Notes under the pieces: generated by a model
The model's database searches: none
Seen by the model: only the letters and a program-made list of their open reading frames with translations
What the model was told of the DNA's origin: nothing
Translations under genes and position numbers: made by a program
Source of the DNA: a virus
Length of the DNA stretch: 31,924 nt
Direction: 5' to 3' (one strand)
IMG/VR virus record: IMGVR_UViG_3300032282_005345
Span: 1-31,924 of that record
Part shown: positions 1-26,950 of the stretch, one piece after another
How positions within the stretch are numbered: position 1 is the first letter of the stretch
Layout: every line of letters begins with the position of its first letter

Positions 1-3000
1 AGTTGGTGTAATAGTACTAGTTGGAGTTTGTGTTGGTGTGTCGGTTATAGTTGGTGTAATAGTGTTAGTTGGTGTATTAGATGGTGTTGGTGTGTTTGTA
101 GGAGTTTGTGTTGTTGTTGGTGTAGGTGTTGGTAATGGATTTGGTGTAAATGGTTCATATAATGAAGTGGTTACCCCTCCAACATTAGTGACAGTTAAAT
201 TATTATCAGAACTATCATTCAAGAAATAAATTCCATAATTAGTATTTAATAATAACGCAGTTCCTCCTGTGATTGCCGCGGATGGGTTACCATTTGAATT
301 CGCACTTTGTGTTTTAGTAAGTGCTCGAGTTGGTGGTGTAAATGCTGTGGTATAAACCGCAGTTCCTTGTACAATACGGAAATTTGAAATATATCCATAA
401 AAAAGTTCACCAGAATAATAAATATGTTCACCAATAGTTAAGTTATTTGTACCTGTTGCACTTCCTCCTCCAGATTTAGTTCCCTGCAAAATACCATTAA
501 TAAACAATCTTGTTGTAGTTCCATCAAATGACAACGCAATATGATACCAAGTATTAGTACTAATAGTATCCACAGAATTAAATATAAAACCATTTTGTTT
601 ACTAAAAGAAAGAGTAATGTAATAAGAAGAATTTAAGGTAAGAACTAAAAAATTAGTGTCATCAAACATTGACCATAAACTTTGATAAGTTTGTCCCGCC
701 GAAAATCCTGAAAAATAATAAAACCCTTCATACGTAAATGCCACATTTTGATTAAATCCGGTATTATATGGTACCGTTAAATATCCACCATTGTATTGTG
801 CACTACCACTTAATATTGGTGATGTTACAGTTGGTGTTGCAGTATTTGATGGGGTTATTGTATTTGTAGGTGTATTTGATGGTGTTTTAGTTGGAGTTTT
901 AGTGTTTGTTGGTGTTTTAGTCGGAGTTTTTGTTGGTGTTCTACTTGCAGTTACTGAAGATGTTGGTGTTGGTGATAATCCAGGTGTTGGTGTTATAGTT
1001 GGAGTTTGAGTACTTGTTGGTGTTGGACTTGGTAATGGATTTGGTGTAAATGGTTCATATAATGAAGTTACAACACTACCTACATTAGTTGCGGTGAAAT
1101 TATTATCAGATCTATCTTGTAAGAAATTAACACCATAATAAGTGTTTAATAATAATGCGGTTCCTCCTGTGATTGCCGCGGATGGGTTACCGTTTGAATT
1201 TGCACTTTGTGTTTTAGTAAGTGCCTGAGTTGGTGGTGTAAAGGCTGTGGTATAAACCGCAGTCCCTCTAACAATACGGAAGTTTGAAATATTTCCCGTT
1301 ATATTATTAAAAAACACATCATAATCAGCCCCTATCACTAATGGTAAACCATTTGTTCCAACACTTCCTCCACCGGCTCTTGATCCCTGTAAAGATCCAT
1401 TAACAAATAATCTGGTTGTCGTACCATCATATGTTAACGCAACGTGATACCAAGTTTGATAATCAAATGTGTTTGTTGATGTTATCACAATTCCCCCCGT
1501 ATATGCCTGATCAACATAGAATCTTTTACTACCAACACCTCCACTAATACTTCCGTTCCAAGTAACTCTCATAAACCCTGATTGGTTCATTCCCCACAAA
1601 TATCCATAAGTTCCGGTATTATTAAAATAATACCACCCTTCATAAGTAAATGCAATATCTTGATCAAATCCTGAATTGTAAGCGTATGATAAATAATTAG
1701 AACCATTAAATTGAGCACTTCCACTTATTAATGGTAATGTAGGTGTAATTGTACTTGTTTGTGTTGGTGTTATTGTAGAAGAAGCCGTTGGTGTTGGGCT
1801 ACCTATACTTGGAGTTATAGATGGTGTGTTAGTTGGTGTATCTGTAATAGTTGGTGTTGGTGTATTAGTTGGAGTATCAGTAATAGTTGGTGTTATAGTA
1901 TTTGTAGGTGTATTAGTTGGTGTATTTGTAGGTGTGTTTGTGGGAGTATCTGTAATAGTTGGTGTATTTGTCGGTGTTTTAGTATTAGTTGGTGTTATTG
2001 TATTAGTTGGAGTACTTGTTGGTGTATCAGTAATTGTAGGTGTATTACTAGACGTATTTGTTGGTGTAATAGTATTTGTTGGTGTATTAGTTGAGGTTTT
2101 GGTATTCGTAGGTGTATTTGTATTTGTTGGTGTTTGTGTTGGAGTATCTGTTATTGTTGGTGTTGGTGTTTTAGTTCCTTCTGTCTGTGTTATTGTACTT
2201 GTTGTTGTTGGTGTAATAGTATTTGTTGGTGTAATAGTATTTGTCGGTGTTTGTGTTGGTGTATCTGTTATTGTTGGTGTTATTGTTGGAGTTTTAGTAT
2301 TTGTTGGTGTATTAGTTGAGGTTTTGGTATTCGTAGGTGTAATAGTATTTGTTGGGGTATTAGTTGGTGTGTCGGTAATTGTAGGTGTTGGTGTTTTAGT
2401 TCCTTCGGTTGGTGTTTGAGTACTTGTTGTTGTTGGTGTTTTTGTGTTTGTTGGTGTAATAGTATTTGTCGGAGTTTGTGTTGGAGTATCAGTTATTGTT
2501 GGTGTGTTTGTTGGTGTTATAGTATTGGTTGGAGTTACACTTGGTGTTTGTGTGTTTGTTGGTGTGTTTGATGGTGTTTTAGTTTGTGTTCTAGTTACCG
2601 TTGATGTTACAGTATTTGAAGGTGTTGGTGTTGGTGATAATCCCGGAGTTGGTGTAGCTGTCGGTGTTGCTGTGGTTGTCGGTGTTGGACTTGGTAATGG
2701 GTTTGGTGTAAATGGTTCGTACAATGAAGTTATTACACCTCCTACATTGGTAACAGTAAAGTTATTATCAGAATTATCTTGTAAGAAATTAGATCCGTAA
2801 AAAGTATTCAATAACAATTGAGTTCCTCCTGTGATTGCTGCAGATGGGTTACCATTTATATTTGCACTTTGTGTTTTAGTAAATGACTGAGTTGGTGGTG
2901 TAAATGTGGTTGTATAAACCGCAGTGCCTCTAACAATACGGAAATTAGAAATATTTCCAGTTATATCATTAAAAAATGCATCAAAATCGGCACCTATTAT

Positions 3001-6000
3001 TAATGGTAAACCATTTGTCCCAATGCTTCCTCCCACATTTGCCGACCCCTGTAAAGAACCATTGATAAATAATCTTGTAGTTGTACCATCATACGTTAAT
3101 GCAACGTGATACCAAGTTTCATAATCAAACGTGTTTGTTGAAGTTATTATAACTCCTCCTGTATATGCCTGATCAACAAAGAATCTCTTACTTCCAACCC
3201 CTCCACCATAATTCCCGTTCCAAGTAACTCTCATAAATCCTGCCTGATCCATTCCCCACAAATAACCTTTAGTACCTGTATTAAAATAAAACCACCCCTC
3301 ATATGTAAATGCAATGTCTTGATCAAAACCTGAATTGTAATTAAGTGATAAATAATTACTACCATCAAATTGAGCACTTCCACTAATTATTTGTAATGTA
3401 GGTGTAGGTGTTACAGATGTTTGAGTATTTGTTGGTGTTTGTGTGTTGGTTTCAGTATTTGTAGGAGTTGTTGTATTCGTTGGTGTATTTGAAGGTGTTT
3501 GTGTGTTTGTAGGTGTGTTTGTTGGTGTTTTTGTTGGTGTCTGTGTTCCTGAAGTTCGTGTATTAGTCTGAGTATTTGTTGGAGTAGCAGTATTGGTTGG
3601 TGTTTCTGAAGGTGTTGTCGTATTTGTTGGTGTTTCCGTTGGTGTTATAGTATTTGTCGGTGTAATTGAAATAGTTGGTGTAACTGAAGGTGTTACTGTT
3701 TGTGTTGCGGTATTAGTTGGTGTTTCAGTATTAGTTGGTGTGTTTGAAGGCGTTTCAGTATTAGTTGGAGTAACAGATGGTGTTGCGGTATTAGTTGGAC
3801 TAACAGATGGTGTTGCAGTATTGGTTTTAGTATTTGTCGGTGTTTTAGTAGGTGTAGGTGTTACTTGTAATCCTCCGTCAGTTATATTCCATAAATAAGT
3901 TCCTGTTAATATGTTTCTACCAACAAGTCCTGTTAACGAATATTGTATTGATCCAAAATTAGCGGTAACACCTGTTTTTACAATTTGTGAACTCCAACCA
4001 TTCAATAAATTATCATAATTAGTTATTGAATAATCCGCACTTGTTTTACCCGCCATGAAATTTGTCAAATCAGTAACTCCTGTAACAACCCAATTACTTA
4101 TATCTGAATTGAACTGAGTAGAATTTTGAAACATTCCACTCATATTTGTAACATTGGACACATCCCATGTACCAATACTTGGTGAATTAGGACTATTATA
4201 AATGAAACACCCTGAGAACATTTCTCTTAGGTTAGTTGTACCTGAAAAATTTGGTGAGTCACTCGCAGGGATTTGAACATTCGTACACCCTTTAAAATAC
4301 CCCCCATTATTTCCAAAATTAACATTTCCCCATTGATTTACATATAAAATTTTTGTTTTTAACGTTGAGCTATAATTTTCAAAATTCCATCCAATTAAAG
4401 TTCCGTTTATAATAATCGTATAAGTTCCATTAGTCGTATATATGTGTGTTTGTTCAGGTTGATTATAACTTGTTATAATATCTGAGGTTCCGTCACCCCA
4501 ATAAACTCTAAAATCATACGTTCCTGTTAAGTCCAAAGGTAATGTAACCACATTTGTGGTAACATTCCAAGTTGTAATAAAAGAAGAATTAAAAATATTA
4601 TTTGTTGGTGTAATACTTGGCGTTAATGAAATTGTTGGTGTTTGTGTTGGTGTATCCGAAATCGTAGGTGTAATAGATGGTGTTTGTGTACTTGTTTTAG
4701 TATTAGTGGGTGTTTGTGTATTTGTTTTTGTGTTAGTCTGCGTTTGTGTACTTGTTTTAGTATTAGTTGGTGTTAATGTATTAGTTGGTGTTAATGTATT
4801 AGTCGGAGTATTAGTTGGTGTGTTTGTTGGGGTATCAGTTATTGTTGGGGTTGTTGTTGGTGTGTTAGTAGGTGTATTTGTTGGGGTTGGTGATCCCGAA
4901 GTTTGAGTATTTGTTGGTGTAGTTGTTTGAGTTGGAGTATTTGTAGGTGTATCAGTTATAGTAGGGGTATTCGTAGGTGTATCGGTTATAGTAGGAGTTA
5001 CGGTTGGTGTTTTTGTATTTGTTGGTGTATTAGTAGGTGTATCAGTTATTGTAGGAGTAATGGTTGGCGTTTTAGTATTAGTTGGAGTATTAGTTGATGT
5101 TTTAGTATTAGTCGGTGTTTGTGTGCTTGTTTTAGTGTTAGTCGGTGTTATAGTATTAGTTGGGGTATTTGTTGGGGTTTCTGTTATTGTTGGAGTTATT
5201 GTTGGGGTATTTGTTGGGGTTTCTGTTATTGTTGGTGTGTTTGATAACGTTAAAAATGGTGTCAATGTACTTGTTTTAGTAACAGTATTTGTTGGTGTAT
5301 TTGTAGGTGTATCACTTATGGTTGGTGTTTGTGTTTTGGTTGGTGTATTACTTGGAGTTGTTGTATTAGTAGGTGTTTGTGTTTTTGTATTAGTTGGGGT
5401 TTTTGTATTAGAGGGTGTATTAGTTGACGTTTTTGTATTAGAAGGGGTATTAGTTTGGGTTTGAGTATTTGTTGGTGTTTGTGTTGGTGTGTCAGTTATT
5501 GTAGGGGTATTTGAAGGTGTAAGACCAGGAGTCCATGTTGGAGTTTGAGTATTTGTTGGTGTTGGTGTATTAGTTGGTGTATCAGTAATCGTTGGTGTGT
5601 TTGTTGGGGTATCTGTTATTGTTGGAGTTTGTGTTTTAGTAGATGTGTTAGAAGGAGTATTAGTTGGTGTTTTAGTGTTTGTTGGGGTTATCGTTGATGT
5701 TGCAGTTGTAGTTCTAGTTGGTGTAATGGTTGGTTGTGGTGTTAACCCTATTGTACATGTTGGTGTTCTAGTAGGACTAGGTGTAACATTAGGACACTCT
5801 CCGGGTAATGAATATAACATACTTGCTGACCATGGTGTTGATCTAATTGGAAGAGTATATTGTTTATCTTCATTATCTTCCGGTCTTAGTCCACCTAATA
5901 CAACACCATCAACACCACTTAATTGAGTTTTCCAAAACCAAACATTGTAAGTTGGTGTATAGAAAACATATGTATCTCCACCAGTTGTTGGAAGAATAAA

Positions 6001-9000
6001 ATAATACCTCCCGTTAAATGTTCCTTGAGCATTTGCCGTGATTGTATATGTTAAATTACCATAAAAATATGCACCATTCCAATCCAAATATTTAAAACAC
6101 ATTGTTTGTAAATTAGGTGTATGTGTTGGTGTTTTTGTTAAAGATAATGTTGGAGTATTGGTTGGTGTATCAGTATTTGTAGGTGTAACACTTGAAGTTA
6201 ACGAAATGGTTGGTGTAAGACTTAATGTTAATGAAATTGTAGGTGTGTTAGAAGGTGTCTTAGTGTTTGTTGGGGTATTGGTTGGTGTTTTGGTTGGTGT
6301 TTTAGTTTGAGTTGGTGTTACTGTTGGTGTTAGTCCAGGAGTTACTGTTGGTGTTGATTGCGGATTTAATCCTCCGTCATAAATTGTCCATCCATACCCT
6401 CCCAACGAAATTGGGTTAGTTAATATGTCTCTCGCCATTACACCATCAATAGTATATTTAACGAATCCATTATTTATACTAATACCTGTTTTTACATTTT
6501 GACTTGCCCATCTTTGTAACAAATAATCATAATATGTTGGGGAATAATTACCATCATCTTTATTGTTAAAAAAGTTACCATAAACATTTACGTTCGTAAA
6601 ATCCCAAGTACTAATATTTTGATTGAAATTTAACGCAGTATCAAATATATTATCCATGGTATTAACATAATATGTCGCCCAATTACCAATATATTGATTA
6701 AATGATTTCGCATTTCTGAACATGTTATTCATGTTCTGAACATATGTTACATCCCAACCTGAAATAGGTTGATTAAAGTTTTCAGCACCATCAAATAACG
6801 AATCCATGTTTGTCACACTTCTTGTCATCCAATTTGTTATTCCACTAAACCCACCATTGTTGAAATTTTTTGCGTTTCTAAACACCGCAATCATTGTACC
6901 CACAATTTGTAACTTATTGTACCAGTTACTTAAATCTTGATTAAAAGATGTCGCATCTTGAAACATGTAATCTAAGTTGGTGACTCTACTTATTTCCCAA
7001 CCACTTAATGGTTGATTAAAATTTGATGCCCCGGCAAAAGTTGCCGTCATATTAGTAACCCCTGACACATTCCACGTGTTAATATTTTGATTAAAAAAAG
7101 TTGCACCACTAAAGGTAGAATTTAAAGTGGTGACTTTTGAAATATCCCAATTATCAATTGGTTGATTAAAATATATCGCACCATTAAATGTGTTTTTTAA
7201 ACTTGTTACTTTTTTTAAAGATGAATAATCCGGTGATGTTCTTTCCCAATTACTTAACGGTTGATCAAAGTTAACCGCATTGTAAAAAACATTTTCCATC
7301 GAAGTCACTCCACTGACACAAAAATTAGAAATATCCCCATTAAAATTTGTGGCACCATTAAACATATCTGTTATGTATAATAATTTTGGTGTTGTCCACG
7401 AAGACAAACTTTGATTAAATGATGATGCATTTTGAAATGCTAATCTCATGTCAGTAACTCCGGTTACTATCCAATTATCTATTGGTTGATTAAAAGACGT
7501 TGCACCATTAAATGTGAATAATAAACTTTTTATGCTTGAAGTATTCCAAGAATTAACTTTACCATTAAATGCTTTAGCATCCCAAAACAGTTTCTCAAAC
7601 CCATAAACTTTAGAAACATCCCAATTATCTAAATCCTGATTAAATAATTGAGTCTGTTCAAACATATTATCAACTTGTCGAAGTGATGTGGTATTCCAAC
7701 TATTAAGAGGTTGATTAAAATTAACGGCATGACTAAACATGAACCCCATAGTCACAACTTTAGAAACATTCCAACTGTTAAGTGGTTGGTTAAATGAATT
7801 TGCAGCATAAAACTTAGCATACATCGTTTCAACATTAGAAACATCCCAGTTATTAAGTGGTTGATTGAAATCAGATGCATAACAGAACATATACCCACTT
7901 TGGGTTACTTTAGACATATCCCAAGTACTAACATCTCCGTTAAATTTTCTAGCGTCATAAAAACAATATGATGTGTTAACCACATTAGATGTGTTCCAAT
8001 TAGAAAGTGGTTGATTAAAAACACGAGCACTTGAAAACGTACGTACTAAAGTAGTAACACTTGATGTATTCCAATCCCCTATCGGTTGATTGAACTCATA
8101 ATTATCTCTAAACGTTTCATTAAGATTTGTAACATTTGAAACATCCCAAGTTGTAATATCAGAATTAAAGTTTACACAACCTAAAAAGGTTCCTCCCATA
8201 TGTAGTATTGTAGAGGTATTCCAATATTCACCATTATTTATTGTTGTTAACGATGTACAATTTCTAAAACCATACGTTAGATAGTTAGTTTCACTTAAAT
8301 CAGGAACGTCTAAACAATCACTTAAACTCAAATTAGTACACCCATCAAAATAATTCCCCCCATTCCCCATTTTCATAGAACCCCACTGTAACACTTTTCT
8401 TATTAGAAGTTTAGAACCAGCATTTGCGAATCTCCACCCAACTAATGTTCCTGTTATTTTTACCACATAAGTTCCGGATGCAACGTATGTATGTGTTTTT
8501 TGTGTTTGATTCCACCCTGTAATTGTGTTAGTATTTCCGTCACCCCAATCAACAACAAAGTCATATGTACCATTGGATTGTAATGGTAATGTTATTGAAA
8601 ATGAACCAGCCGTTAACGGTCCATTTAATGACAATGTCTGTGTTCCCCAAACAGTAACGAAAGCGTCAAGTGGGTATGGTGTCTGTGTTGGTGTCGCAGT
8701 ATTCGTTGGGGTTTGAGTATTTGTTGGTGTTGGAGTAGGACTTAATCCTGAAGTAATAGTATTTGTTGGTGTTGCCGTATTAGAAGGGGTTTGAGTCTTT
8801 GTGTGTGTTGGAGTTTTTGTTATTGAAGGAGTATTGGTTGCCGTCTTAGTATTTGATGGGGTATTAGTTGGGGTTTTAGTGTTAGTCGGGGTTAAAGGTG
8901 GTGTTTCCGTATTTGTTGGAGTATTTGGAGGAGTAGATGTTTTAGTTGGGGTATGAGTTGATGTGAAAGATACTGTTAAAGATATTGTTGGGGTAATTGA

Positions 9001-9327
9001 GGGTGTTTGAGTTGGTGTGTCGGTAATAGTTGGGGTTATTGTTGGAGTTCTAGTATTAGAAGGTGTTTGAGTCGGCGTTTGAGTTGGTGGTGGGGTACAA
9101 TCAATTATTTTAATTTTTTCACACCCTAAAGAATCAACAAATATTACCATTACTTGTTGTATCGAATCAAAAATTGTAGATAAATAAAAATAGTCTATTG
9201 GTGGTACGGGTACGGGACCTTCACCATTTATTTGCCCAACATATTGTCTATTGTTTCCGTTTATATCCGCAACATAGACATCTATCGGTGTTTCTCCACT
9301 CGCATTGGTTATTATTATCTCTGTCAT
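1..9327 (-). CDS. Giant multidomain Thr/Pro-linker fibre or adhesin protein (3' end outside window)
   Basis: One frame stays open from an ATG at 9327 to the window edge, giving 3109 codons with no stop seen. The ATG overlaps the TGA of the upstream gene (ATGA), which implies translational coupling. Order by residue: N-domain 1-77; TP linker 78-219; PKD-like domain (WGDG at 261) followed by about 21 BspA/DUF285 units to about 989; linker; unknown domain about 1073-1182 with Cys near both ends; the longest linker to about 1576; a second PKD-like (WGDG at 1610) plus short DUF285 module to about 1820; linker; LamG-like domains at about 1978-2211, 2531-2765 and 2838-3062, separated by linkers. No signal peptide is visible. 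LamG and BspA modules are known binding folds on adhesins. With its place after baseplate genes, I infer a long tail fibre or receptor-binding protein. Exact function and length are unknown. Confidence 0.93.
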   Translation of the reverse strand, partial: MTEIIITNASGETPIDVYVADINGNNRQYVGQINGEGPVPVPPIDYFYLSTIFDSIQQVMVIFVDSLGCEKIKIIDCTPPPTQTPTQTPSNTRTPTITPTITDTPTQTPSITPTISLTVSFTSTHTPTKTSTPPNTPTNTETPPLTPTNTKTPTNTPSNTKTATNTPSITKTPTHTKTQTPSNTATPTNTITSGLSPTPTPTNTQTPTNTATPTQTPYPLDAFVTVWGTQTLSLNGPLTAGSFSITLPLQSNGTYDFVVDWGDGNTNTITGWNQTQKTHTYVASGTYVVKITGTLVGWRFANAGSKLLIRKVLQWGSMKMGNGGNYFDGCTNLSLSDCLDVPDLSETNYLTYGFRNCTSLTTINNGEYWNTSTILHMGGTFLGCVNFNSDITTWDVSNVTNLNETFRDNYEFNQPIGDWNTSSVTTLVRTFSSARVFNQPLSNWNTSNVVNTSYCFYDARKFNGDVSTWDMSKVTQSGYMFCYASDFNQPLNNWDVSNVETMYAKFYAANSFNQPLNSWNVSKVVTMGFMFSHAVNFNQPLNSWNTTSLRQVDNMFEQTQLFNQDLDNWDVSKVYGFEKLFWDAKAFNGKVNSWNTSSIKSLLFTFNGATSFNQPIDNWIVTGVTDMRLAFQNASSFNQSLSSWTTPKLLYITDMFNGATNFNGDISNFCVSGVTSMENVFYNAVNFDQPLSNWERTSPDYSSLKKVTSLKNTFNGAIYFNQPIDNWDISKVTTLNSTFSGATFFNQNINTWNVSGVTNMTATFAGASNFNQPLSGWEISRVTNLDYMFQDATSFNQDLSNWYNKLQIVGTMIAVFRNAKNFNNGGFSGITNWMTRSVTNMDSLFDGAENFNQPISGWDVTYVQNMNNMFRNAKSFNQYIGNWATYYVNTMDNIFDTALNFNQNISTWDFTNVNVYGNFFNNKDDGNYSPTYYDYLLQRWASQNVKTGISINNGFVKYTIDGVMARDILTNPISLGGYGWTIYDGGLNPQSTPTVTPGLTPTVTPTQTKTPTKTPTNTPTNTKTPSNTPTISLTLSLTPTISLTSSVTPTNTDTPTNTPTLSLTKTPTHTPNLQTMCFKYLDWNGAYFYGNLTYTITANAQGTFNGRYYFILPTTGGDTYVFYTPTYNVWFWKTQLSGVDGVVLGGLRPEDNEDKQYTLPIRSTPWSASMLYSLPGECPNVTPSPTRTPTCTIGLTPQPTITPTRTTTATSTITPTNTKTPTNTPSNTSTKTQTPTITDTPTNTPTITDTPTNTPTPTNTQTPTWTPGLTPSNTPTITDTPTQTPTNTQTQTNTPSNTKTSTNTPSNTKTPTNTKTQTPTNTTTPSNTPTKTQTPTISDTPTNTPTNTVTKTSTLTPFLTLSNTPTITETPTNTPTITPTITETPTNTPTNTITPTNTKTSTQTPTNTKTSTNTPTNTKTPTITPTITDTPTNTPTNTKTPTVTPTITDTPTNTPTITDTPTNTPTQTTTPTNTQTSGSPTPTNTPTNTPTTTPTITDTPTNTPTNTPTNTLTPTNTLTPTNTKTSTQTQTNTKTNTQTPTNTKTSTQTPSITPTISDTPTQTPTISLTPSITPTNNIFNSSFITTWNVTTNVVTLPLDLTGTYDFRVYWGDGTSDIITSYNQPEQTHIYTTNGTYTIIINGTLIGWNFENYSSTLKTKILYVNQWGNVNFGNNGGYFKGCTNVQIPASDSPNFSGTTNLREMFSGCFIYNSPNSPSIGTWDVSNVTNMSGMFQNSTQFNSDISNWVVTGVTDLTNFMAGKTSADYSITNYDNLLNGWSSQIVKTGVTANFGSIQYSLTGLVGRNILTGTYLWNITDGGLQVTPTPTKTPTNTKTNTATPSVSPTNTATPSVTPTNTETPSNTPTNTETPTNTATQTVTPSVTPTISITPTNTITPTETPTNTTTPSETPTNTATPTNTQTNTRTSGTQTPTKTPTNTPTNTQTPSNTPTNTTTPTNTETNTQTPTNTQTSVTPTPTLQIISGSAQFDGSNYLSLNYNSGFDQDIAFTYEGWFYFNTGTKGYLWGMDQAGFMRVTWNGNYGGGVGSKRFFVDQAYTGGVIITSTNTFDYETWYHVALTYDGTTTRLFINGSLQGSANVGGSIGTNGLPLIIGADFDAFFNDITGNISNFRIVRGTAVYTTTFTPPTQSFTKTQSANINGNPSAAITGGTQLLLNTFYGSNFLQDNSDNNFTVTNVGGVITSLYEPFTPNPLPSPTPTTTATPTATPTPGLSPTPTPSNTVTSTVTRTQTKTPSNTPTNTQTPSVTPTNTITPTNTPTITDTPTQTPTNTITPTNTKTPTTTSTQTPTEGTKTPTPTITDTPTNTPTNTITPTNTKTSTNTPTNTKTPTITPTITDTPTQTPTNTITPTNTITPTTTSTITQTEGTKTPTPTITDTPTQTPTNTNTPTNTKTSTNTPTNTITPTNTSSNTPTITDTPTSTPTNTITPTNTKTPTNTPTITDTPTNTPTNTPTNTPTNTITPTITDTPTNTPTPTITDTPTNTPSITPSIGSPTPTASSTITPTQTSTITPTLPLISGSAQFNGSNYLSYAYNSGFDQDIAFTYEGWYYFNNTGTYGYLWGMNQSGFMRVTWNGSISGGVGSKRFYVDQAYTGGIVITSTNTFDYQTWYHVALTYDGTTTRLFVNGSLQGSRAGGGSVGTNGLPLVIGADYDVFFNNITGNISNFRIVRGTAVYTTAFTPPTQALTKTQSANSNGNPSAAITGGTALLLNTYYGVNFLQDRSDNNFTATNVGSVVTSLYEPFTPNPLPSPTPTSTQTPTITPTPGLSPTPTSSVTASRTPTKTPTKTPTNTKTPTKTPSNTPTNTITPSNTATPTVTSPILSGSAQYNGGYLTVPYNTGFNQNVAFTYEGFYYFSGFSAGQTYQSLWSMFDDTNFLVLTLNSSYYITLSFSKQNGFIFNSVDTISTNTWYHIALSFDGTTTRLFINGILQGTKSGGGSATGTNNLTIGEHIYYSGELFYGYISNFRIVQGTAVYTTAFTPPTRALTKTQSANSNGNPSAAITGGTALLLNTNYGIYFLNDSSDNNLTVTNVGGVTTSLYEPFTPNPLPTPTPTTTQTPTNTPTPSNTPTNTITPTITDTPTQTPTSTITPT
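145..816 (-). repeat. LamG-like (concanavalin-type jelly roll) domain, copy 3
   Basis: This is the third of three homologous domains in the giant protein, at residues about 2838-3062. It opens with SGSAQYNG and has WYHIALSFDGTTTRLFING, then FRIVQGTAVYTTAFTPPT, and ends with LYEPFTPNPLP. These are hallmarks of LamG-like domains found in phage tail proteins. It is the most divergent copy in its first half, while its last third is nearly the same as copy 2. LamG folds commonly bind glycans, so sugar or surface binding is the inferred role. Confidence 0.85.
1033..1735 (-). repeat. LamG-like domain, copy 2
   Basis: This domain covers residues about 2531-2765 of the giant protein. It contains SGSAQFNGSNYLS, FTYEGWYYF, a GFMRVTWNG strand, WYHVALTYDGTTTRLFVNG and FRIVRGTAVYTTAFTPPT. 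It aligns with copy 1 along its whole length with scattered substitutions, which points to a fairly recent duplication of a domain-plus-linker module. Both copies run into a linker carrying the phrase TPGLSPTPT. Confidence 0.87.
2086..2535 (-). repeat. 225-bp tandem duplication inside a Thr/Pro linker
   Basis: The block 2086-2310 repeats as 2311-2535 at an exact 225-bp (75-codon) offset. Two rare markers keep the same spacing: the ttgaggttttggtattcg stretch at 2091 and 2316, and ttagttccttc at 2171 and 2396. The encoded phrase TEGTKTPTPTITDTPT occurs twice. Divergence between the copies is mostly synonymous or at the variable x position of TPTx. This shows linker growth by in-frame segment duplication. 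Confidence 0.8.
2695..3396 (-). repeat. LamG-like domain, copy 1
   Basis: This domain covers residues about 1978-2211 of the giant protein. It shares with copy 2 the SGSAQF(D/N)GSNYLS opening, the FDQDIAFTYEGW strand, VDQAYTGG, WYHVALTYDGTTTRLF and the closing LYEPFTPNPLPSPTPT. The family is a LamG/ConA-like jelly roll, typical of phage fibres and bacterial adhesins. The ligand cannot be read from the sequence. Confidence 0.87.
3866..4599 (-). repeat. PKD-like plus short BspA/DUF285 module
   Basis: Residues about 1577-1820 of the giant protein. It starts with a beta-rich domain containing YWGDGTSD and HIYTTNGTYTI, followed by about three DUF285-type units (MFSGC, WDVSNVTNMSGMFQN, FNSDISNW). 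It closes with a cap: YDNLLNGW, then VKTG, then ITDGGL. The same head and cap bracket the long array at 6361-8669, so the two are paralogous modules that differ mainly in repeat number. Confidence 0.82.
4600..5780 (-). repeat. Longest Thr/Pro TPTx linker array (12-bp period)
   Basis: About 393 codons of TPTx units (x mostly N, I, K, S, Q or D) with no globular interruption. On the plus strand it is a nearly pure T/G tract with a 12-base period around ttggtgt. Thr codons depend on position: ACA before Pro and mostly ACT after it. The encoded chain should be extended and flexible, acting as a spacer. Related arrays lie at about 1-141, 820-1032, 1740-2694, 3400-3865, 6114-6360 and 8672-9096. Confidence 0.9.
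5780..6111 (-). other. Unidentified Cys-bounded globular domain between linkers
   Basis: Residues about 1073-1182 of the giant protein, between TP linkers. It begins with CFKYLDWNG, has an aromatic-rich core (FYGNLTYTI, GRYYFILP, VFYTP, VWFWKTQL) and ends with LPGEC, so a terminal disulfide is possible. I do not recognise the family. The beta-rich, aromatic composition suggests another small binding module. Confidence 0.7.
6361..8669 (-). repeat. PKD-like head plus about 21 BspA/DUF285 leucine-rich-type repeats
   Basis: Residues about 220-989 of the giant protein. The head has VDWGDGNTN and THTYVASGTYVV, PKD-like. About 21 units of roughly 25 residues follow, with the pattern FNQPLxxWxxSxVxxMxxMFxxAxx; variants include FNGDVSTW, FNQDLDNW and FDQPLSNW. 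This is the DUF285/BspA-type repeat of bacterial surface proteins. The array ends with a cap (YDYLLQRW, VKTG, IYDGGL). Units differ in sequence but hardly in length, forming one solenoid likely used for surface or protein binding. Confidence 0.88.
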
Positions 9328-11462
9328 GAACTACACTTAATATCATAGTCAATTACCAAATCTGCCTTAATATTTTCGTAGGTCAAATTAGTGTTATTTT
9401 TATTCGATAAAATTGTTATTTTATTATCTATCTCATCTATAATTACTTCATCTATACCAATTATTCCTAATAATAATTGTCTTAATGAGTCGTACCATAA
9501 ATTATCTGTTGGTACTACGGTAAGTGATGTTGTTGTGAAAAATTCTTCAGAAACTTCTATACCAACAGGTATAATACTAACCTTAGCGGTAAACGTTGCG
9601 GATACAAGTTCACAACCACTATTTTCAGTTATTAATTCTTGATACCCATCATTTAACATTTCAAGTAAACCAAACTTATTTTCTTTTTGTACATCAAATG
9701 AATTGTAATCCATTATAAATGTTTCATATGAAACATAATTTTTATTTCCGGTTAAAGTTACTTCTCCACTATATGAAGAATTGTTATTATCAACTACCGT
9801 TAATGAGTATGTACCTGCAGTTAATCCTGTAACCGTAATACTTTGAGGGTTTCCCGATATATTATCCGACCAATAAAACTGAAATGGTGCAATTCCGGAA
9901 GTAATAAATGCGGTAATTTGTCCTTCATTACTACTAACTTTTTCACTACTCATAAGTGAAAAAACTACTGGTTCCACATAATCAAGAAAAACATTTTTTG
10001 ATTGACTACATCCAAAATTGTCAACAACTTTAACTACATGTAATCCTTCAGATATATTTGTAAATGTAAATGCAGTTAAAACCGTATTTGTTAACACATT
10101 AATATCATCTATAATATAATTAAAAGGTGATTCACCTCCCTCAGACATAACAACATTAATAATACCATTGTTTTGTCCAAATGTTGTACCTGTTGTTTGT
10201 ACATCAATGGTAAATTTATCTTCAGTAATTAAAATAATTTCCTCAATGTATGAACAACCATTTTCATTTTGAACTGCAACTGAATATGTTCCCGCAGATA
10301 AATTAGAAAAAACATAAATATTACTTGGTAAGGTAACAACAGATGAGGTGGAATCAGGATATATTAAAGTATATGTATAAAGATTATTACTACCATTAAC
10401 GTTAATGGTTATTGAACCGTCTGTACTTGAACATGTCGAATTTTTTGCGAGGACACTTACCGAATATATTCCGCCGGGTTGTTGTAAATTTGTTGATACA
10501 TTTAATCTACATAGTGCAGCATCTGTTACATTAAACGAATAAATACCACTACTTAACCCTGAATAAACTAATGTTCTTAAATATGAAATTTCATTATATC
10601 CTGTTGATGCTGAATAATAAAATGGTGGAGTTCCTCCTGTTATCTCTAAGATTATTTCCCCATTATTTGACAAACAACTTGGTTGTGTTAATATAAAATT
10701 ACCAAAACCTAACAATTCAACATCAGTAATAACCGCATCTTTAGTTAACGAACAATTTAAATTATCAATAACATTTACGGAATAAGCACCGGTTGTTAAC
10801 CCTGTTATAGTGTTTCCTGTTTCTCCATTACTCCAAAGATAAGTATATGGTGGTGAGCCGGTAATTCCGGTAATATAAATTTTACCTAAATTTGTATTAC
10901 CGCAAGAAGAGTTTGGTACAACCCATAACCCAAAATCAAGAGGTACTGTTTGTTCAATTAAAAAATTTTCACTTCTACCACTACAACCGGAATCGTCTCT
11001 TACAATTGAATAATATGTACCAGCACTTAAACTATCGTATATATAGGTTTGAGATGCTGTGGTAGAACTACTAACTAAACTATCATTTGAATCATATATA
11101 TAAAAATTATTTGTTAAATAATTTGAATTAGTCGAAACACTAACAATTCCATTATTCAACCCACAAGTTGTTGCACTAATTGAATCAATATTACAACATG
11201 TTTGATATGGAACATAAGCTAAAACAGGTACTGATTGATTTGGTGTTGAACTATCTATAATAGATATTGTATAGTTACCGGTGTATAAATTTTCTCTTAA
11301 AGATGTTTCTCCCGATGTTACTATGTAATCAGAACCTAAATTGGGTTCCAGCCATTGTATTATAAATGGTGGTTCTCCGTCAGTCGGATAAACACTAACT
11401 TTACCCGAACCCGTTTGAGAACAATCTCCCGTTATTGATAATACGTAATTTATAGTTGCCAT
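9324..11462 (-). CDS. SprB-like repeat virion protein, probable fibre adaptor
   Basis: 712 aa. Residues 1 to about 585 form about seven repeats of 75-90 residues. Each has a Cys near the start, an N(N/D)G turn, PPYTYLWSNG-like strands, a LTTGAYSVNVID-like strand and a closing Cys (for example around SCGNTNLGKIYI and PSCLSNNGEIIL). This is the SprB repeat pattern, best known from Bacteroidota surface adhesins. Repeats 6 and 7 lose some cysteines. Residues about 590-712 are a different C-terminal domain. The start lies 3 bases from the preceding gene, and the TGA overlaps the ATG of the giant gene, so the two products are probably made together. I infer a rod-like link between baseplate and giant fibre; an independent adhesin is possible. 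Confidence 0.85.
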   Translation of the reverse strand: MATINYVLSITGDCSQTGSGKVSVYPTDGEPPFIIQWLEPNLGSDYIVTSGETSLRENLYTGNYTISIIDSSTPNQSVPVLAYVPYQTCCNIDSISATTCGLNNGIVSVSTNSNYLTNNFYIYDSNDSLVSSSTTASQTYIYDSLSAGTYYSIVRDDSGCSGRSENFLIEQTVPLDFGLWVVPNSSCGNTNLGKIYITGITGSPPYTYLWSNGETGNTITGLTTGAYSVNVIDNLNCSLTKDAVITDVELLGFGNFILTQPSCLSNNGEIILEITGGTPPFYYSASTGYNEISYLRTLVYSGLSSGIYSFNVTDAALCRLNVSTNLQQPGGIYSVSVLAKNSTCSSTDGSITINVNGSNNLYTYTLIYPDSTSSVVTLPSNIYVFSNLSAGTYSVAVQNENGCSYIEEIILITEDKFTIDVQTTGTTFGQNNGIINVVMSEGGESPFNYIIDDINVLTNTVLTAFTFTNISEGLHVVKVVDNFGCSQSKNVFLDYVEPVVFSLMSSEKVSSNEGQITAFITSGIAPFQFYWSDNISGNPQSITVTGLTAGTYSLTVVDNNNSSYSGEVTLTGNKNYVSYETFIMDYNSFDVQKENKFGLLEMLNDGYQELITENSGCELVSATFTAKVSIIPVGIEVSEEFFTTTSLTVVPTDNLWYDSLRQLLLGIIGIDEVIIDEIDNKITILSNKNNTNLTYENIKADLVIDYDIKCSS

Positions 11463-11465
11463 TTA

Positions 11466-14438
11466 TTAAATTGAATTTACATTTAACTGTATTCCAACAT
11501 TAAGTGTTAAATTTTGATTTAAATTTTGTCCACTTGATGCTAATGTTGTAATTGTTAAATTATCACCATTTAGGAAATAATTTAAATTATATTGAATAAT
11601 ACTTGGTAAATTATTATTTAAAGCAACCCTCCAATCATTATTAGTTGGGACATCGTTAGGTCCGTGCCCCGTATAGAATAATGCTTGAATTAATATTTGG
11701 TTACCCAACCTTAAATCCACATACCATTTTGACTCAAGTGAATTATAATTCAATTGATTGTTTAAAATTTGGTTAGTGGTTGCTAACGCATTTAACCTAT
11801 TATTCAATATCCCACTGAAACTTGTAACACCCACATTATTATTCCAAGGAAAAATGTTAAGTGAAACACGTCTCGAATTTTGAGAATTTATAAAAATTGT
11901 TGATGTTATACTACATGGTGTTGCTGGTGTAACATTTGACAATACTTGACATCCTCTTTGTCTTCTATATGGGAATTTTTGTTTGTGTAAAACTGAATTC
12001 TCATATTTAATTCCCCCTTGCCAAATTGTTGTTGCCGGAATCATCTGATCAACCAACTTCATCCAAGAAGGATTTATACCTAAAGAATAATCAATTAATT
12101 TTTGATATGTATACTTATTATTAGGTAATCCTTCCTCAACTTCAGATAAAATATATTTCCACCATAAAGATTGTAATGTAGGATATCCTCCGGTTTTACC
12201 ATCCGTAATATATAAACGATTTCTTACGTTTATCATATTTTGCCAAAAAGTTTGAGAAAATTCAAAAAAAGTTTTTTTGTTTGGTTCGGGATTAATAAAT
12301 GTTGAATCAACTCCTCCAGGTTGTGGGTAATTTATTGTTAATCCGCTATTGGGTATAGGATAGTTATATTTAACCGATTCATCCCAAACGTCATAAACCA
12401 AACCTTGTCCGGGATTAATAAATAAATCAACATTTTTTACATTGATTACTAATTTCTCATCTTCAACAAAATAATAAGCATTATAATTACCTTGTGTTGA
12501 AACTCTAAGTTTATTATCTGTTGATAACCAAGATTTATTATTATCAATTATTTTTTCAATATTAAACCCATGATCCATGTAAGGAAATTTGGTGTAAATG
12601 TCCAAATAATCCTGTCCATAAGTAAATGGTTTCAATTGTGTTTGTATTGAATAGTTTTGATTTACGTATACGTTTCCTGTTATTTGTACTTGTTCAGGAC
12701 TTCTGTGAGATGGTGTTGATTCGTACCACCCAGCACCTTTTTGGAAAAACATTGAATTAGTTTCTATTGGAGATTTTGGATAACCTTCCAAATCAATCGG
12801 ATAATTTGATAAACTTACCGAAACATCTTCATATATTGATTGATTAGTAATTCCTGTGTATGTTTTACCCTTTAATCTAAAAATATTACCCGGATCATAT
12901 TGAGGAACTTCATCCACATATGTTCCACCGGAAATCTTTGAAAAAGAATTATAAAATTTTTCAATATCAATTTTATTATCCGCAATGTATATGTGTTCAT
13001 TATATTCAAGAATAGATTCCGGTATACCAATTAAATTTAAAACAAATTCAACAGATCTTCTTGTACCTTTAGATTTAAAAATATACGCAGAATTTAATAT
13101 TAAATTTCTATAAAACGCATAGTTTAATTCTGTCGGTGTTAATGCCTTTGCATAACCGGGATATACATTTTTTGCACCATTACCAAAAATGGTTGATAAG
13201 TAATCTTCATTAACAATAGGAGAGAAATTAGAGTTCCACCCTAACGTCTGTGCTAAATTTACTAATAATTCGTTTGGTATATCATTTTCAGGGTTATAGT
13301 TAACCGAATTAATGTACGCCAACCCATCAATATATTTTTTTATTTCATCAAAACTTCTACCATATAATTGTAATACCTTTTCAACCTTTCTACCTAAAGT
13401 GTCAAAATCTTTTAAAGAATCAGATGTCAAAAATCTTGAAATTAAATTTGTTTTAAATGAATCTAAATTTTCTGCAATATCTTGTAATGATTGTAGATAA
13501 TCATCAAATTGTTGTGATCTAATGTCTAAATTCCACACACCATCTTTTTGCCACGTTACCGGTAAATATTGAGTGTAAAATTGTCCGTATTCATTTTGTT
13601 GTGGTACTTGGAATACTGCAGTATAAATTGGTTGTATTAATCGATTTAAAAGAAATTGTTCTATTTCATCAAAATTTTCAGTAAACACTTTATCAACAAC
13701 ATAATCGTTAGGTCTAATGTTAAAATCAACGTTTGATGTTGTTGCCGTTGTACCAAATGGAGTACCTGAAACATAAAAAGAAATATACCCACTTGTTAAG
13801 GTATCTGATGGTTTAAACGATAAAACTTTGTACTCGTTTTCACCGATTACAATTGCATAATCCGAATATGTGTTAAAAAGATTTCTATACTTTGAAACTT
13901 CATTATCACTAACATTTTGATTAGTTGTCGCACTTAATGAATAATCAATACCAAATGGGTTATTAATTCTATTAACATTTACCTCAAAATATGTTTCATT
14001 TTCAACTTGATCGTATGAAATATTTACCGCAGTATCTCCTGTGGTAAAATCCGTCATAGTAAATAAAACATCAATTGATGCTGGAAAATAATTAATTATT
14101 TTTGTTACAGACACACTCAACCTTTTCGCAAAAGAACCATACATTGAAAAATTTAAAGGTTGTGAAATATCATATTGTGGGTATACTCTAAATTGTTCCG
14201 ATAAAACACTACTCTGAACTAAATTATCAATATTTAAATCCTCTAAATTTACTGGTTCAGCAAACTCACCAACGTTGAACTTCCTATTAACTTTTTCAAC
14301 AATTCCGGTTCTAAACTCAAAGTTCGCTTGCGTAAGTCCTCCACCATCTACGATTTGTAGTCCTACAATGTTGTCCGAAAAAGTTCCAGCACCATTTCCA
14401 GGTCTTGGTGGGTAAAAATATTTTTTAATTGTTGCCAT
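11466..14438 (-). CDS. Baseplate or tail protein with tail-protein-I-like core
   Basis: 990 aa. The N-terminal 300 residues look beta-rich (MATIKKYFYPPRPGNGAGTF, then a FEFRTGIVEKVNRKF segment). The central region has helices typical of P2 gpI-like tail proteins: TQYLPVTWQ, IRSQQFDDYLQSLQDIAENL, LLVNLAQTLGW and FKSKGTRRSVEFVLNLIGIP. The KGT plus short hydrophobic helix is the most family-like motif. The C-terminal third is beta-rich. Its start shares one base with the stop of the 302-aa gene (TAATG). In the family, such proteins join the wedge to fibres; that fits its position just before the SprB-repeat and giant fibre genes. The assignment to Tail_P2_I is by motif only. Confidence 0.65.
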   Translation of the reverse strand: MATIKKYFYPPRPGNGAGTFSDNIVGLQIVDGGGLTQANFEFRTGIVEKVNRKFNVGEFAEPVNLEDLNIDNLVQSSVLSEQFRVYPQYDISQPLNFSMYGSFAKRLSVSVTKIINYFPASIDVLFTMTDFTTGDTAVNISYDQVENETYFEVNVNRINNPFGIDYSLSATTNQNVSDNEVSKYRNLFNTYSDYAIVIGENEYKVLSFKPSDTLTSGYISFYVSGTPFGTTATTSNVDFNIRPNDYVVDKVFTENFDEIEQFLLNRLIQPIYTAVFQVPQQNEYGQFYTQYLPVTWQKDGVWNLDIRSQQFDDYLQSLQDIAENLDSFKTNLISRFLTSDSLKDFDTLGRKVEKVLQLYGRSFDEIKKYIDGLAYINSVNYNPENDIPNELLVNLAQTLGWNSNFSPIVNEDYLSTIFGNGAKNVYPGYAKALTPTELNYAFYRNLILNSAYIFKSKGTRRSVEFVLNLIGIPESILEYNEHIYIADNKIDIEKFYNSFSKISGGTYVDEVPQYDPGNIFRLKGKTYTGITNQSIYEDVSVSLSNYPIDLEGYPKSPIETNSMFFQKGAGWYESTPSHRSPEQVQITGNVYVNQNYSIQTQLKPFTYGQDYLDIYTKFPYMDHGFNIEKIIDNNKSWLSTDNKLRVSTQGNYNAYYFVEDEKLVINVKNVDLFINPGQGLVYDVWDESVKYNYPIPNSGLTINYPQPGGVDSTFINPEPNKKTFFEFSQTFWQNMINVRNRLYITDGKTGGYPTLQSLWWKYILSEVEEGLPNNKYTYQKLIDYSLGINPSWMKLVDQMIPATTIWQGGIKYENSVLHKQKFPYRRQRGCQVLSNVTPATPCSITSTIFINSQNSRRVSLNIFPWNNNVGVTSFSGILNNRLNALATTNQILNNQLNYNSLESKWYVDLRLGNQILIQALFYTGHGPNDVPTNNDWRVALNNNLPSIIQYNLNYFLNGDNLTITTLASSGQNLNQNLTLNVGIQLNVNSI

Positions 14439-23885: not shown

Positions 23886-25724
23886 TTATGAGAATGTTAC
23901 AGATTGGAAATTTTTAACAGAAACTCTAATATCTTTAGCTGGGTATCTTACTTGATACACCTGACTTGGTTCCGCAAAAATTGTATCGTCAATTGGTTGT
24001 ATTTTTTTTGTGGCAGGATCAGCATACTCCATTGAAGTTTCCGATGATGAATATTGTCCACCCACATTATTATAAACGTCTAATCCTGTTATAGTTATGA
24101 CACCATTTTGTGTTTGGATTAAACTTTTTAATTCAGATAAATAAACATTTTGTCCTAATTGTCTTTTAATTGGATTAAAATATTCAGAAACAATGTTAAT
24201 CACATTTGAAATGATTTGTCCTGAGTTTTGAGTCGCCTCAAGTACAACAGAAATTTCAACAGATAAGTCAATTACATTTGCAGTTGTAACCGAAATATAA
24301 TCATTCATCATTCTATAGTTAGATAAATAATTTGCCAAGTTTTGCATTAAAGTATTAGATACTATCGGTGTAAGTTTACCCGATGTATCATATGATAATA
24401 CTTGAATATTAATTTTATTATCTATTTCAGTTATTGATACTTTTGCCGGAGCCCCAAATTGTGCCGGCATATTTCTTATAATTGACTCATAATCTTGTAC
24501 CGTTACCGCTCTTTTTTGTGCCGAGAAGTTAAATGACACAAAACTTCTAACCTCTTCTGTTGTTGGAACATTAGCACCACCAATAGCGGCAATTGAGTTT
24601 GTACATCTTAAAGATGATATTACAGAATTATTTGTTACTTCTGAAGGACCATTCACAAAAAATGAAACAGTACCAACTTGATTAATAACACTAACACCCA
24701 AGTTAGTTGCCAATCCTCCCCCTATTCTATATTGAATAAACAATGTTGAATTTGGAACCAAAGTAGAACCTAACGCAAAATTGTTTGAATAGTGTTGTAT
24801 ATTCAAAGGAACCGACATATTAGTAAATTGATTCAATTGATCTTGTGCAGAATTAACTCCTCCACCAAATATAATTTTCTTAAACCCTTCAGGTGTAAAT
24901 TCAGATATAAATCTATTATCAGTTTTAATATATTTTCCAACTTTAATTCCGGGTTGATCTGAAACCTTTGTTGGATCTTCAACAAATACCCTATCTTCTG
25001 CTAACGCATCTACTTCATACCATCTATTGGCACTACCAAGAAACTCTGAAGATGTTGGTATGTTAGTATATTCTGTACCATTTTTAAGTAAAACACTTGT
25101 AATACCAAGAACATTTTTTTCAGGTAAAAATAATTCATAAAATGGTTTTACCTCATTTGCTGTTATAACCTTTTTGAAAACTTTTGTTACACCATTAACA
25201 ACAACTTCTCTTTTTGTTATAGTATAATTAACTATAATACCATTAGCATTAAAGTTAGGTATCTTAGTTCTATTTAAATTTCCTTGAGAATCATATGGAG
25301 ATGCGAAATCAATATCATTAACGTTTTCAAAAACCTGTCCTCCTCCAATAAACTGAGAACCTCTAAGTAAGATACCTAAGTATCTTTCATCTTCTTTATC
25401 ACCAAAAACAGGGACTGTTATTGAAATATCTAATAAAGATACTGAAGGTCTTTGTCCCGGTATTTTTAAACCATATGTTCTAGCAATATTATATATTGAC
25501 GATCTTTGTTGAGCATACAATAAAACAGTTTCTTGAATACTTCTATCAATGTGATAATGTAAGTTATCCGCAATAGCTGCGTTTAAATCCAAAAATACAG
25601 AGAATACTGACGCATCATTAAAATCTTGAATAAGTTCAGGATAATATGTTTTTACGTAATTTGCTAACTCTACTCGTATAGCATCGTAATCTCTAACTGT
25701 GTATGATATTTTATTGCTTGCCAT
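23886..25724 (-). CDS. Baseplate wedge protein, gp6 / baseplate-J-like
   Basis: 612 aa, near the 660 aa of T4 gp6. The N-terminus matches the family: YTVRDYDAIRVELANYVKTY, then a DFNDASVFSVFLDLNAAIADNLHYHIDR stretch (residues about 35-65) and QRSSIYNIARTYGLKIPGQRP. Later come the FGGGVNS region, RAVTVQDYESIIRNMP (about residues 410-425) and a C-terminal PIKRQLGQNVYLSEL segment typical of the J-like fold. In T4 the gp6 dimer forms the iris around the baseplate hub and binds gp25, whose homologue lies 5 bases upstream here. This pairing makes the call strong. Confidence 0.9.
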   Translation of the reverse strand: MASNKISYTVRDYDAIRVELANYVKTYYPELIQDFNDASVFSVFLDLNAAIADNLHYHIDRSIQETVLLYAQQRSSIYNIARTYGLKIPGQRPSVSLLDISITVPVFGDKEDERYLGILLRGSQFIGGGQVFENVNDIDFASPYDSQGNLNRTKIPNFNANGIIVNYTITKREVVVNGVTKVFKKVITANEVKPFYELFLPEKNVLGITSVLLKNGTEYTNIPTSSEFLGSANRWYEVDALAEDRVFVEDPTKVSDQPGIKVGKYIKTDNRFISEFTPEGFKKIIFGGGVNSAQDQLNQFTNMSVPLNIQHYSNNFALGSTLVPNSTLFIQYRIGGGLATNLGVSVINQVGTVSFFVNGPSEVTNNSVISSLRCTNSIAAIGGANVPTTEEVRSFVSFNFSAQKRAVTVQDYESIIRNMPAQFGAPAKVSITEIDNKINIQVLSYDTSGKLTPIVSNTLMQNLANYLSNYRMMNDYISVTTANVIDLSVEISVVLEATQNSGQIISNVINIVSEYFNPIKRQLGQNVYLSELKSLIQTQNGVITITGLDVYNNVGGQYSSSETSMEYADPATKKIQPIDDTIFAEPSQVYQVRYPAKDIRVSVKNFQSVTFS

Positions 25725-25729
25725 TTAAT

Positions 25730-26197
25730 TTAAATATTAATTATTACAAAATCACTCTGAGAAAATGTTGCTCCGGCGGTTGAGTATTCTATTTTTACCT
25801 TAGCAGTATAATCCGCAGTTCCTTTACCCGGAACACGAAAAATACTTGAAACATCATCAACTGATGGTGAACCAATTCCCGGATTAGTTTCTTCTGATTG
25901 ATCGAGTGGTGTTATTGATATATTATTGACTATAAGGTTTGGCATATATTTTGTTATTGCATCCCTAATATCCGATTCAATTGCATTAAATGTTAAACCG
26001 TCAAATGGTTCAAAAATAAATTCATATAACCTTGTACCAAAATCAGGTAAAAAATATCTTGAACCTTTTCTTGTTAAAAGAAGATGTATTAAGTCTGCTC
26101 TAATTTCACTAGATTGAAATTCAGTTAATTGAAGATAATCTCCTTTATTTGAATCTCTAAAAGGAAAATTTATACCATATGTTATACCATCTGCCAT
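25730..26197 (-). CDS. Baseplate wedge protein, gp25-like (GPW_gp25 family)
   Basis: 155 aa, slightly longer than T4 gp25 (132 aa). The family core is clear: residues about 40-65 read LLLTRKGSRYFLPDFGTRLY followed by EFIFEPFDGLTF, then IESDIRDAITKYMPNLIVNNI. An insert after about residue 100 (SEETNPGIGSPSVDDVS) explains the extra length. gp25 nucleates the wedge and sits between gp6 and the sheath. It precedes the gp6-like gene by 5 bases. The ATG at 26197 has no Shine-Dalgarno sequence, only an A/T leader. Confidence 0.93.
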   Translation of the reverse strand: MADGITYGINFPFRDSNKGDYLQLTEFQSSEIRADLIHLLLTRKGSRYFLPDFGTRLYEFIFEPFDGLTFNAIESDIRDAITKYMPNLIVNNISITPLDQSEETNPGIGSPSVDDVSSIFRVPGKGTADYTAKVKIEYSTAGATFSQSDFVIINI

Positions 26198-26217: not shown

Positions 26218-26397
26218 TTATTTTTTTATTGTAGTATTACCTCTTTGTCCAACGGGTTCAAAAGGACAATGTTTGCATTTGTTACCGCAACAGTGTCCCC
26301 TGTCTATGTGATACTGTTCTGTGAACACTAATCGTGTTCCATCCATATAATAATGAGAAGGGAGAAGTTTAGGTAGTTTCTTTTCATTTTCTTTCAT
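26218..26397 (-). CDS. Small Cys-rich DUF5522-type protein
   Basis: 59 aa, encoded between the HNH and gp25-like genes. The chain has SHYYMDGTRLVFTEQYHIDR followed by GHCCGNKCKHCPF (Cys 36, 37, 41 and 44, His 43). This is the pattern I know from DUF5522 proteins, VFT...HL.RG.CCG..C.HCP. The cysteines suggest metal binding; the function of the family is unknown. The start at ATG 26397 lies inside the HNH gene and overlaps it by 14 bases. A second ATG at 26387 overlaps the HNH stop (ATGA) but opens a frame that soon ends, so it is not used here. Likely cotranscribed with the HNH gene. Confidence 0.8.
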   Translation of the reverse strand: MKENEKKLPKLLPSHYYMDGTRLVFTEQYHIDRGHCCGNKCKHCPFEPVGQRGNTTIKK

Positions 26398-26950
26398 TTG
26401 TTATTTTTTCACATATATCTAAAAAGTAATCTTGATTGAAATAATTTTTCATTAAGTTAATGTCTTTATGAATCCATTGTATATTACCAACAACATACCC
26501 TTCATTTGAATCTATCCTATCTATGGATGCGGTTGCCCCATAATTATCTTTTTTTGAATGTGAAAAATAGATTGGAAGTTTACTTAAATTACATTTAAAA
26601 TCTTGGTCAACTAAAACTTGATTAATATATTCAATTGTTATGTCAAATATTATATTTCTTTTGATTGCATTTCTTTTTATCCTACCATAATATTTTCCAC
26701 TTATGTTTTTAAATCCTCCCCACAAAGGATTAGTTTCACCAGGTCTTGAATTATTACATTCTAAACATCCTTTGGATTTTCCATTTAATAAAGTCCAACA
26801 AGAAACATAATTTTCTACGCCACATTCACATAAACACAAAATTTGTGCCTCTCTTTTTAATTCTATATTTCCATTTATAATAGTATATTTACCAAATTTT
26901 TGACCCTCCATAAACTTTCCAAAATATTTTGATGTTCCTTTTTTTCCCAT
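26384..26950 (-). CDS. Free-standing HNH endonuclease (homing type)
   Basis: 188 aa. The N-terminal part has a probable zinc site: CLCECG (Cys 39, 41, 43) and CLEC (Cys 62, 65), the treble-clef pattern of many phage HNH proteins. The C-terminal nuclease motif reads ASIDRIDSNEGYVVGNIQWI (residues 141-160) followed by HKDINLMK, with Cys 120 before it. This is the common phage HNH layout in which D144-N156-H161 lie around the metal. It sits alone between the reductase terminator and the DUF5522 gene, as mobile homing genes often do. DNA target is unknown; a recent insertion beside the reductase gene is an inference. Confidence 0.87.
   Translation of the reverse strand: MGKKGTSKYFGKFMEGQKFGKYTIINGNIELKREAQILCLCECGVENYVSCWTLLNGKSKGCLECNNSRPGETNPLWGGFKNISGKYYGRIKRNAIKRNIIFDITIEYINQVLVDQDFKCNLSKLPIYFSHSKKDNYGATASIDRIDSNEGYVVGNIQWIHKDINLMKNYFNQDYFLDICEKITNERK

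Follow-up and report, generated by a model that had tools for sequence, protein, structure and literature searches.

A reading frame of more than 3000 codons at one end of a viral contig, beaded with Thr/Pro-rich linkers, raises the question of what such a protein does for the phage that carries it. The window analysed here, 31,924 bases long, comprises an entire IMG/VR virus record, which is probably a genome fragment of an uncultured virus. We consider it likely that the frame encodes a modular, multivalent fibre for host recognition, attached to the baseplate of an uncultured T4-type phage with a contractile tail.

A giant modular frame at the contig edge

From an ATG at position 9327, a single minus-strand frame runs for 3109 codons without a stop to the contig edge at position 1, and is the sole large frame over this region. 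The first-pass annotation had given a frame of more than 3109 codons with these coordinates, seven linkers and the same main domains, all of which were borne out here. Its claim that an antisense VGV shadow keeps to a single phase also held, with 163 VGV in one plus-strand frame and 0 in the other two, though the shadow extends from 2 to 9071 rather than from 38 to 8716. The linkers had been put at about 39 percent of the protein; the seven that we counted come to 1279 residues (41%). The gene is incomplete, and because the contig edge falls within linker 7, at least one further module is likely to lie beyond it. As a check for leftward extension, the left edge was probed with an exact 31-base sequence, which found no overlapping contig in IMG/VR, and a contig of the same phage (L009, 100% identical) stops short of the giant gene, so the length and integrity of the frame rest on a single contig.

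The protein comprises an N-terminal domain, six modules (two PKD plus DUF285, one unknown and three LamG-like) and the seven Thr/Pro linkers (Table 1). DUF285 (E=3e-176, 7 stretches) and Laminin_G_3 (E=2e-42, three stretches) matched above the Pfam cut-off, and the PKD matches (E 0.009-0.017) fell below it. In the AlphaFold model of module A, a cap rich in beta-strands occupies the place of the PKD and is followed by about one short strand per 25 residues, a predicted pattern matching BspA-type viral proteins. Compared with the PDB, module A gave weak alignments to leucine-rich-repeat receptors that superposed poorly (TM about 0.12-0.17), and its leucine-rich-repeat likeness is therefore one of fold class only. 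Module B had no Pfam match even at E<=5, and none in annotated phages or in the relatives' loci searched. The region before the first linker required a correction to the first-pass annotation, as it is itself a conserved domain with orthologues; a fold search with it returned no PDB match below E 0.001. The N-terminus, MTEIIITNASGETP, is not signal-peptide-like by inspection.

Among the LamG-like modules, E is 62% identical to F. An alignment search with LamG found three distant loci only, and LamG relatives in cyanophages are annotated as virion structural proteins. At the DNA level, module F (172-807) is 92-93% identical to module E (1051-1716) in the C-terminal third and 39% identical in the middle; this unevenness suggests either recombination between modules or unequal constraint.

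Table 1. Features of the giant gene and of neighbouring genes in the window.
Feature	Residues	Position	Strand	Remarks
Giant modular gene, putative fibre	at least 3109 codons	1..9327	-	open at contig edge
N-terminal domain	1-77	9097..9327	-	putative attachment domain; AlphaFold pLDDT 75, beta-strand fold
Linker 1	78-225	8653..9096	-	[T/S]-x alternation
Module A	226-986	6370..8652	-	PKD-like cap and long DUF285/BspA solenoid; 25-residue period, AlphaFold pLDDT 89
Linker 2	987-1077	6097..6369	-	
Module B	1078-1180	5788..6096	-	103 aa; no relative found
Linker 3	1181-1578	4594..5787	-	
Module C	1579-1813	3889..4593	-	short PKD-like and DUF285; paralogue of A
Linker 4	1814-1983	3379..3888	-	
Module D	1984-2203	2719..3378	-	LamG/concanavalin-like
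Linker 5	2204-2537	1717..2718	-	
Tandem duplication, 225 bp		2058..2507	-	within linker 5
Module E	2538-2759	1051..1716	-	LamG-like; 84% identical to D
Linker 6	2760-2840	808..1050	-	
Module F	2841-3052	172..807	-	LamG-like; N-terminal half diverged
Linker 7	3053-3109	1..171	-	runs off contig
712-aa Ig/SprB-repeat protein	712	9324..11462	-	synteny conserved
990-aa conserved fibre-operon protein	990	11466..14438	-	56-69% identical in relatives, L009 apart
gp6-like baseplate wedge		23886..25724	-	PHROG match
gp25-like baseplate wedge		25730..26197	-	PHROG match

Alternating Thr/Ser spacers

Within the linkers, at least 80% Thr on one parity was found in 936 of 1146 segments of 20 residues, compared with a mean of 49 and a maximum of 100 in 200 shuffles. 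Positions with Thr at -4, -2, +2 and +4 were themselves Thr or Ser in 349 of 352 cases (99%) in the window, and in 99.5% of 2416 positions in 30 related proteins, a test that is biased toward the rule by its conditioning on flanking Thr and yet leaves the middle residue unforced. The intervening x positions are variable (P, N, Q, E, A, V, I, K, D, S), with proline making up 34-39% of them. All four Thr codons are used in the linkers. Between the two 225-bp tandem copies, 16 codon differences are synonymous and 6 non-synonymous, the latter all at x. From the Thr/Ser parity and the synonymous bias of changes between the tandem copies, selection appears to maintain Thr/Ser on every second residue. 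Simple DNA slippage as the sole cause of the alternation is disfavoured, since all four Thr codons occur and the amino acid substitutions between duplicate copies lie at x positions. Nine short T/P-rich stretches from bacteria, a small control set with few true linkers, showed no alternation (0/116 segments vs 9058/10637). Elsewhere, a protein with a different N-terminus (L115:4146-6575) carries DUF285 and [T/S]-x linkers, with T or S at all 77 positions tested, indicating that the [T/S]-x spacer is not limited to the N-domain of this clade.

The first-pass annotation proposed a flexible fibre, but the strict alternation under apparent purifying selection suits a random coil no better than it does a shaft that is extended or structured. 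One reading is that the [T/S]-x segments form a folded shaft, such as strands of an oligomeric beta-rod that presents a hydroxyl face, or a rod made stiff by dense O-glycosylation. In its favour are the constancy of Thr/Ser at T-phase positions while x varies, in the window and in relatives alike, the use of all four Thr codons together with the distribution of changes between the tandem copies, and the lack of alternation in the bacterial stretches, but that control is small and does not consist of true linkers, and the share of proline at x disfavours regular beta hydrogen bonding. The Bacteroidota O-glycosylation motif is D[ST][AILMVT], and its absence from the seven linkers speaks against a glycosylated rod. 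We regard a folded or glycosylated shaft as less likely than not; it would be compatible with the host-recognition fibre that we favour and bears only on how the spacer works. At 0.34 nm per residue, the spacers of one chain, if fully extended, would by themselves reach a maximum of about 430 nm; their actual length depends on spacer structure. No description of Thr-Pro or [T/S]-x linkers in phage fibres was found in the open-access literature searched, which is not proof of novelty. We put forward, as a tentative proposal, that the [Thr/Ser]-x polymer may be a defined, selectively maintained and new phage fibre shaft, its length tuned by in-frame tandem duplication, which spaces interchangeable binding modules across a large uncultured T4-type lineage.

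Operon, lineage and relatives

The flanking genes are all co-oriented and include 5'-3' exonuclease, DnaB-type helicase, ribonucleotide reductase, HNH endonuclease, gp25 and gp6 types. Downstream of the gp25- and gp6-type wedges (PHROG E 5e-18 and 3e-17, respectively) are seven large genes without PHROG matches and then, in last place, the giant gene, which overlaps the upstream 712-aa gene by 4 bases at its start. None of the large genes separating gp6 from the fibre gave a PHROG match, no homologues of T4 fibre or gp10/11/12 proteins were found, and protein P0001 matched families of unknown function only, save for a weak tape-measure match. Between gp25 and the ribonucleotide reductase, an HNH/endonuclease VII-like gene (26384-26950) is possibly a homing endonuclease. 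The gp6 protein shares 28% identity with the Flavobacterium phage immuto baseplate wedge, and as much with a protein of a Microcystis phage; both phages have a comparable order of gp25, gp6 and large genes. Profile comparison detected no orthology between the 990- and 712-aa proteins and the proteins at syntenic positions in the Microcystis phage. Two of the large fibre-operon proteins matched none of 50,697 annotated phage records. The gp23 capsid family PF07068 was found in five of six related records (E about 1e-63), the window fragment itself being without gp23. Given the gp25/gp6 operon, the comparable gene orders and gp23 in related records, the phage is, on sequence grounds, of T4-type (gp23 lineage) ancestry.

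Relatives were collected as 80 contigs retrieved with the neighbouring 990-aa protein, and those whose contigs reach far enough share a common gene order. N-domain orthologues, identified within these retrieved loci, form in most relatives a separate ORF of about 80-130 aa in the same place (38-53% identical), with invariant residues I6, P14, V17, D21, I33, P42, F53, C69 and C77. Downstream of it, most relatives have a second ORF, whose product starts with an N-terminus of its own and continues with a Thr/Pro linker and a tip domain; in many, the ORF after that is large and collagen-like with TSG/SSG repeats. Such ORFs run to the locus edge in L033:16563-22970, L063:18108-22955 and L078:17455-21499; that of L033 matches tail-fibre PHROGs, with scores to which its low-complexity collagen-like repeats contribute. 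The N-domain is fused to a linker, as in the window, in L044 and L046-L049, and sits on a DUF285 protein in L103 and L106. The best full counterpart, L118, encodes proteins of 990 and 711 aa, a 78-aa N-domain ORF and a 1444-aa Thr/Pro-linked protein ending in PKD-DUF285, beyond which lie further N-domain and linker ORFs. Since the parts occur both as separate ORFs and as fusions, the window gene is a fused, enlarged form of a cassette found widely in the lineage: a single chain exceeding 3109 residues unites parts that are separate in most relatives. Further Thr/Pro-beaded proteins are encoded at a second locus of related genomes (L154:4245-9179 and 10446-14027, minus strand; L155:3114-8982), one of which, in L154, has 1644 aa and ten linkers.

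Close relatives differ in spacer and tip. The 990-aa proteins of L041 and L042 are 99% identical and the N-termini of their linked proteins 100% identical, with tips at 46% and linkers of 210 vs 307 residues. Likewise, L035/L038 (990-aa proteins 98% identical) have tips 46% identical and linkers of 132 vs 234, and L011/L014 (98%) have tips 52% identical and linkers of 256 vs 499. Across pairs with 98-99% identical 990-aa proteins the N-termini were 91-100% identical; these values come from relatives of the window phage, in which the linked protein mostly has another N-terminus (that of the second ORF) and other tips. Linker length is unchanged in the equally close pairs L047/L048 and L058/L062, so that length change is frequent, not universal. 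Phage receptor-binding proteins are commonly built with a conserved N-terminus and an exchangeable tip, and the combination of conserved N-terminus and variable tip in these comparisons is the pattern that one expects of a receptor-recognition protein.

As to the host, about 59 of the 80 best-scoring bacterial/archaeal loci related to module A belong to Bacteroidota (counted by title), although DUF285 has a wider distribution that includes archaea, Campylobacter and Brachyspira among others. SprB repeats (Pfam) are present in the upstream 712-aa protein. The DUF285 relatives and SprB repeats are a hint, and no more, that the probable host is a Bacteroidota bacterium. A profile of the 990-aa protein found no relative in 84,980 GTDB genomes.

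Proposed function and known fibres

The suggestion in the first-pass annotation of a multivalent binding fibre is strongly backed by the position of the gene at the fibre end of a baseplate operon, by its module content and by the pattern of conserved N-terminus and variable tip in relatives. In the mechanism that we propose, the 77-residue N-terminal domain would dock the chain to the 712- and/or 990-aa fibre-operon proteins, a step that we infer, since the domain has no significant PDB match. The long [Thr/Ser]-x spacers may keep the modules apart and set their reach, and their length may shift fast by in-frame tandem duplication or loss; length change was seen in relatives, and in-frame duplication once, in the window. 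The PKD-capped DUF285 solenoids and LamG/concanavalin-like domains would be the modules that bind the ligands, in all likelihood glycans or glycoproteins of the cell surface, so that several weak contacts per chain could together catch the cell by avidity. LamG and DUF285 domains can also have non-binding roles. The [T/S]-x rule, visible in the sequence, is linked to recognition machinery that evolves fast, in a T4-type lineage that is widespread and apparently uncultured. Should reach or flexibility be set by the spacer, host contact may adapt by spacer length as well as by tip identity, and the clade offers a natural series of close phages that differ in both.

A different role for the protein would be that of a virion-borne accessory adhesin for an environmental matrix (algal polysaccharide, mucilage or particles) or for many kinds of surface glycan, while the infection receptor is bound by a different fibre of the cassette, for instance the product of the collagen-like ORF. 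Modules of the LamG/concanavalin and PKD types bind carbohydrate or matrix in a generic way, several Thr/Pro-linked proteins occur at more than one locus in related genomes (L154), and many relatives have a distinct collagen-like tail-fibre gene next in order, all of which would suit such an adhesin. We nevertheless think it unlikely, as the linked protein of relatives sits in the baseplate operon and contrasts strongly in its conserved N-terminus and variable tip. There is very little chance that the gene is instead a moron encoding a non-virion protein, that is, a secreted or host-surface adhesin expressed during infection: module A is indeed common in bacterial genomes, mainly those of Flavobacteriia, but the N-terminus does not resemble a signal peptide, the start overlaps the upstream operon gene, and the N-domain is conserved within the baseplate/fibre operon in dozens of contigs. 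An assembly artefact, in which a chimera or mis-joined repeats merged two or more genes, could be suspected from the 225-bp tandem copies, the contig end within a linker and the lack of an independent contig spanning the gene. It is highly improbable given that the frame is unbroken over seven linkers, that the LamG copies are only 62-84% identical and hence not assembly duplicates, that the fusion of N-domain and linker recurs in five other contigs, and that multi-linker proteins of 1074-1644 aa are found in others.

The host-recognition fibre that we favour has counterparts among known phages. In the T4-like baseplate operon of Synechococcus phage syn9, the gene immediately behind gp6 is gp101 (6076 aa, annotated as 'virion structural protein, putative fiber'); it is likewise a giant fibre gene and has a LamG stretch matching module E, over which homology was compared. 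In contrast, the same scan found no Thr/Pro linkers in gp101, its gene order is different and syn9 is a marine cyanophage. Proteomics of S-PM2 and Syn9 gave structural proteins of unknown function that may be the missing tail-fibre proteins, as reviewed previously (PMC2984593). Very long DUF285 genes are known from jumbo phages, for example ORF200 of Vibrio phage pir03 at 19,254 nt (PMC7765460). This gene, those of Aeromonas phage D3 and gp103 of Sphingomonas phage PAU encode a DUF285 solenoid of the same family, but lie outside a gp25-gp6 operon as far as examined, and the stretch of PAU gp103 that was read has no Thr/Pro spacers. Given gp101 and the jumbo-phage genes, giant modular phage fibres were already known; as far as the literature was searched, what is new here is the [T/S]-x spacer, its rapid change in length and the fusion of modules into one chain. 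The N-terminus and tip pattern of receptor-binding proteins is reproduced in the relatives, here with a hypervariable [T/S]-x spacer in between.

The likeness to cellulosomal scaffoldins drawn in the first-pass annotation, which had set the protein apart from classical T4 fibres, did not stand: scaffoldins also carry beads on Thr/Pro-rich linkers, an analogy only, but the window protein has no cohesin, dockerin or CBM match in Pfam, and giant fibres with LamG already occur in T4-like phages. Among BspA-like/PKD surface proteins of Flavobacteriia, the module of PKD cap and DUF285 is common, with best segments mostly 33-42% identical, whereas the window gene is phage-encoded, lies in a baseplate operon and combines this module with others.
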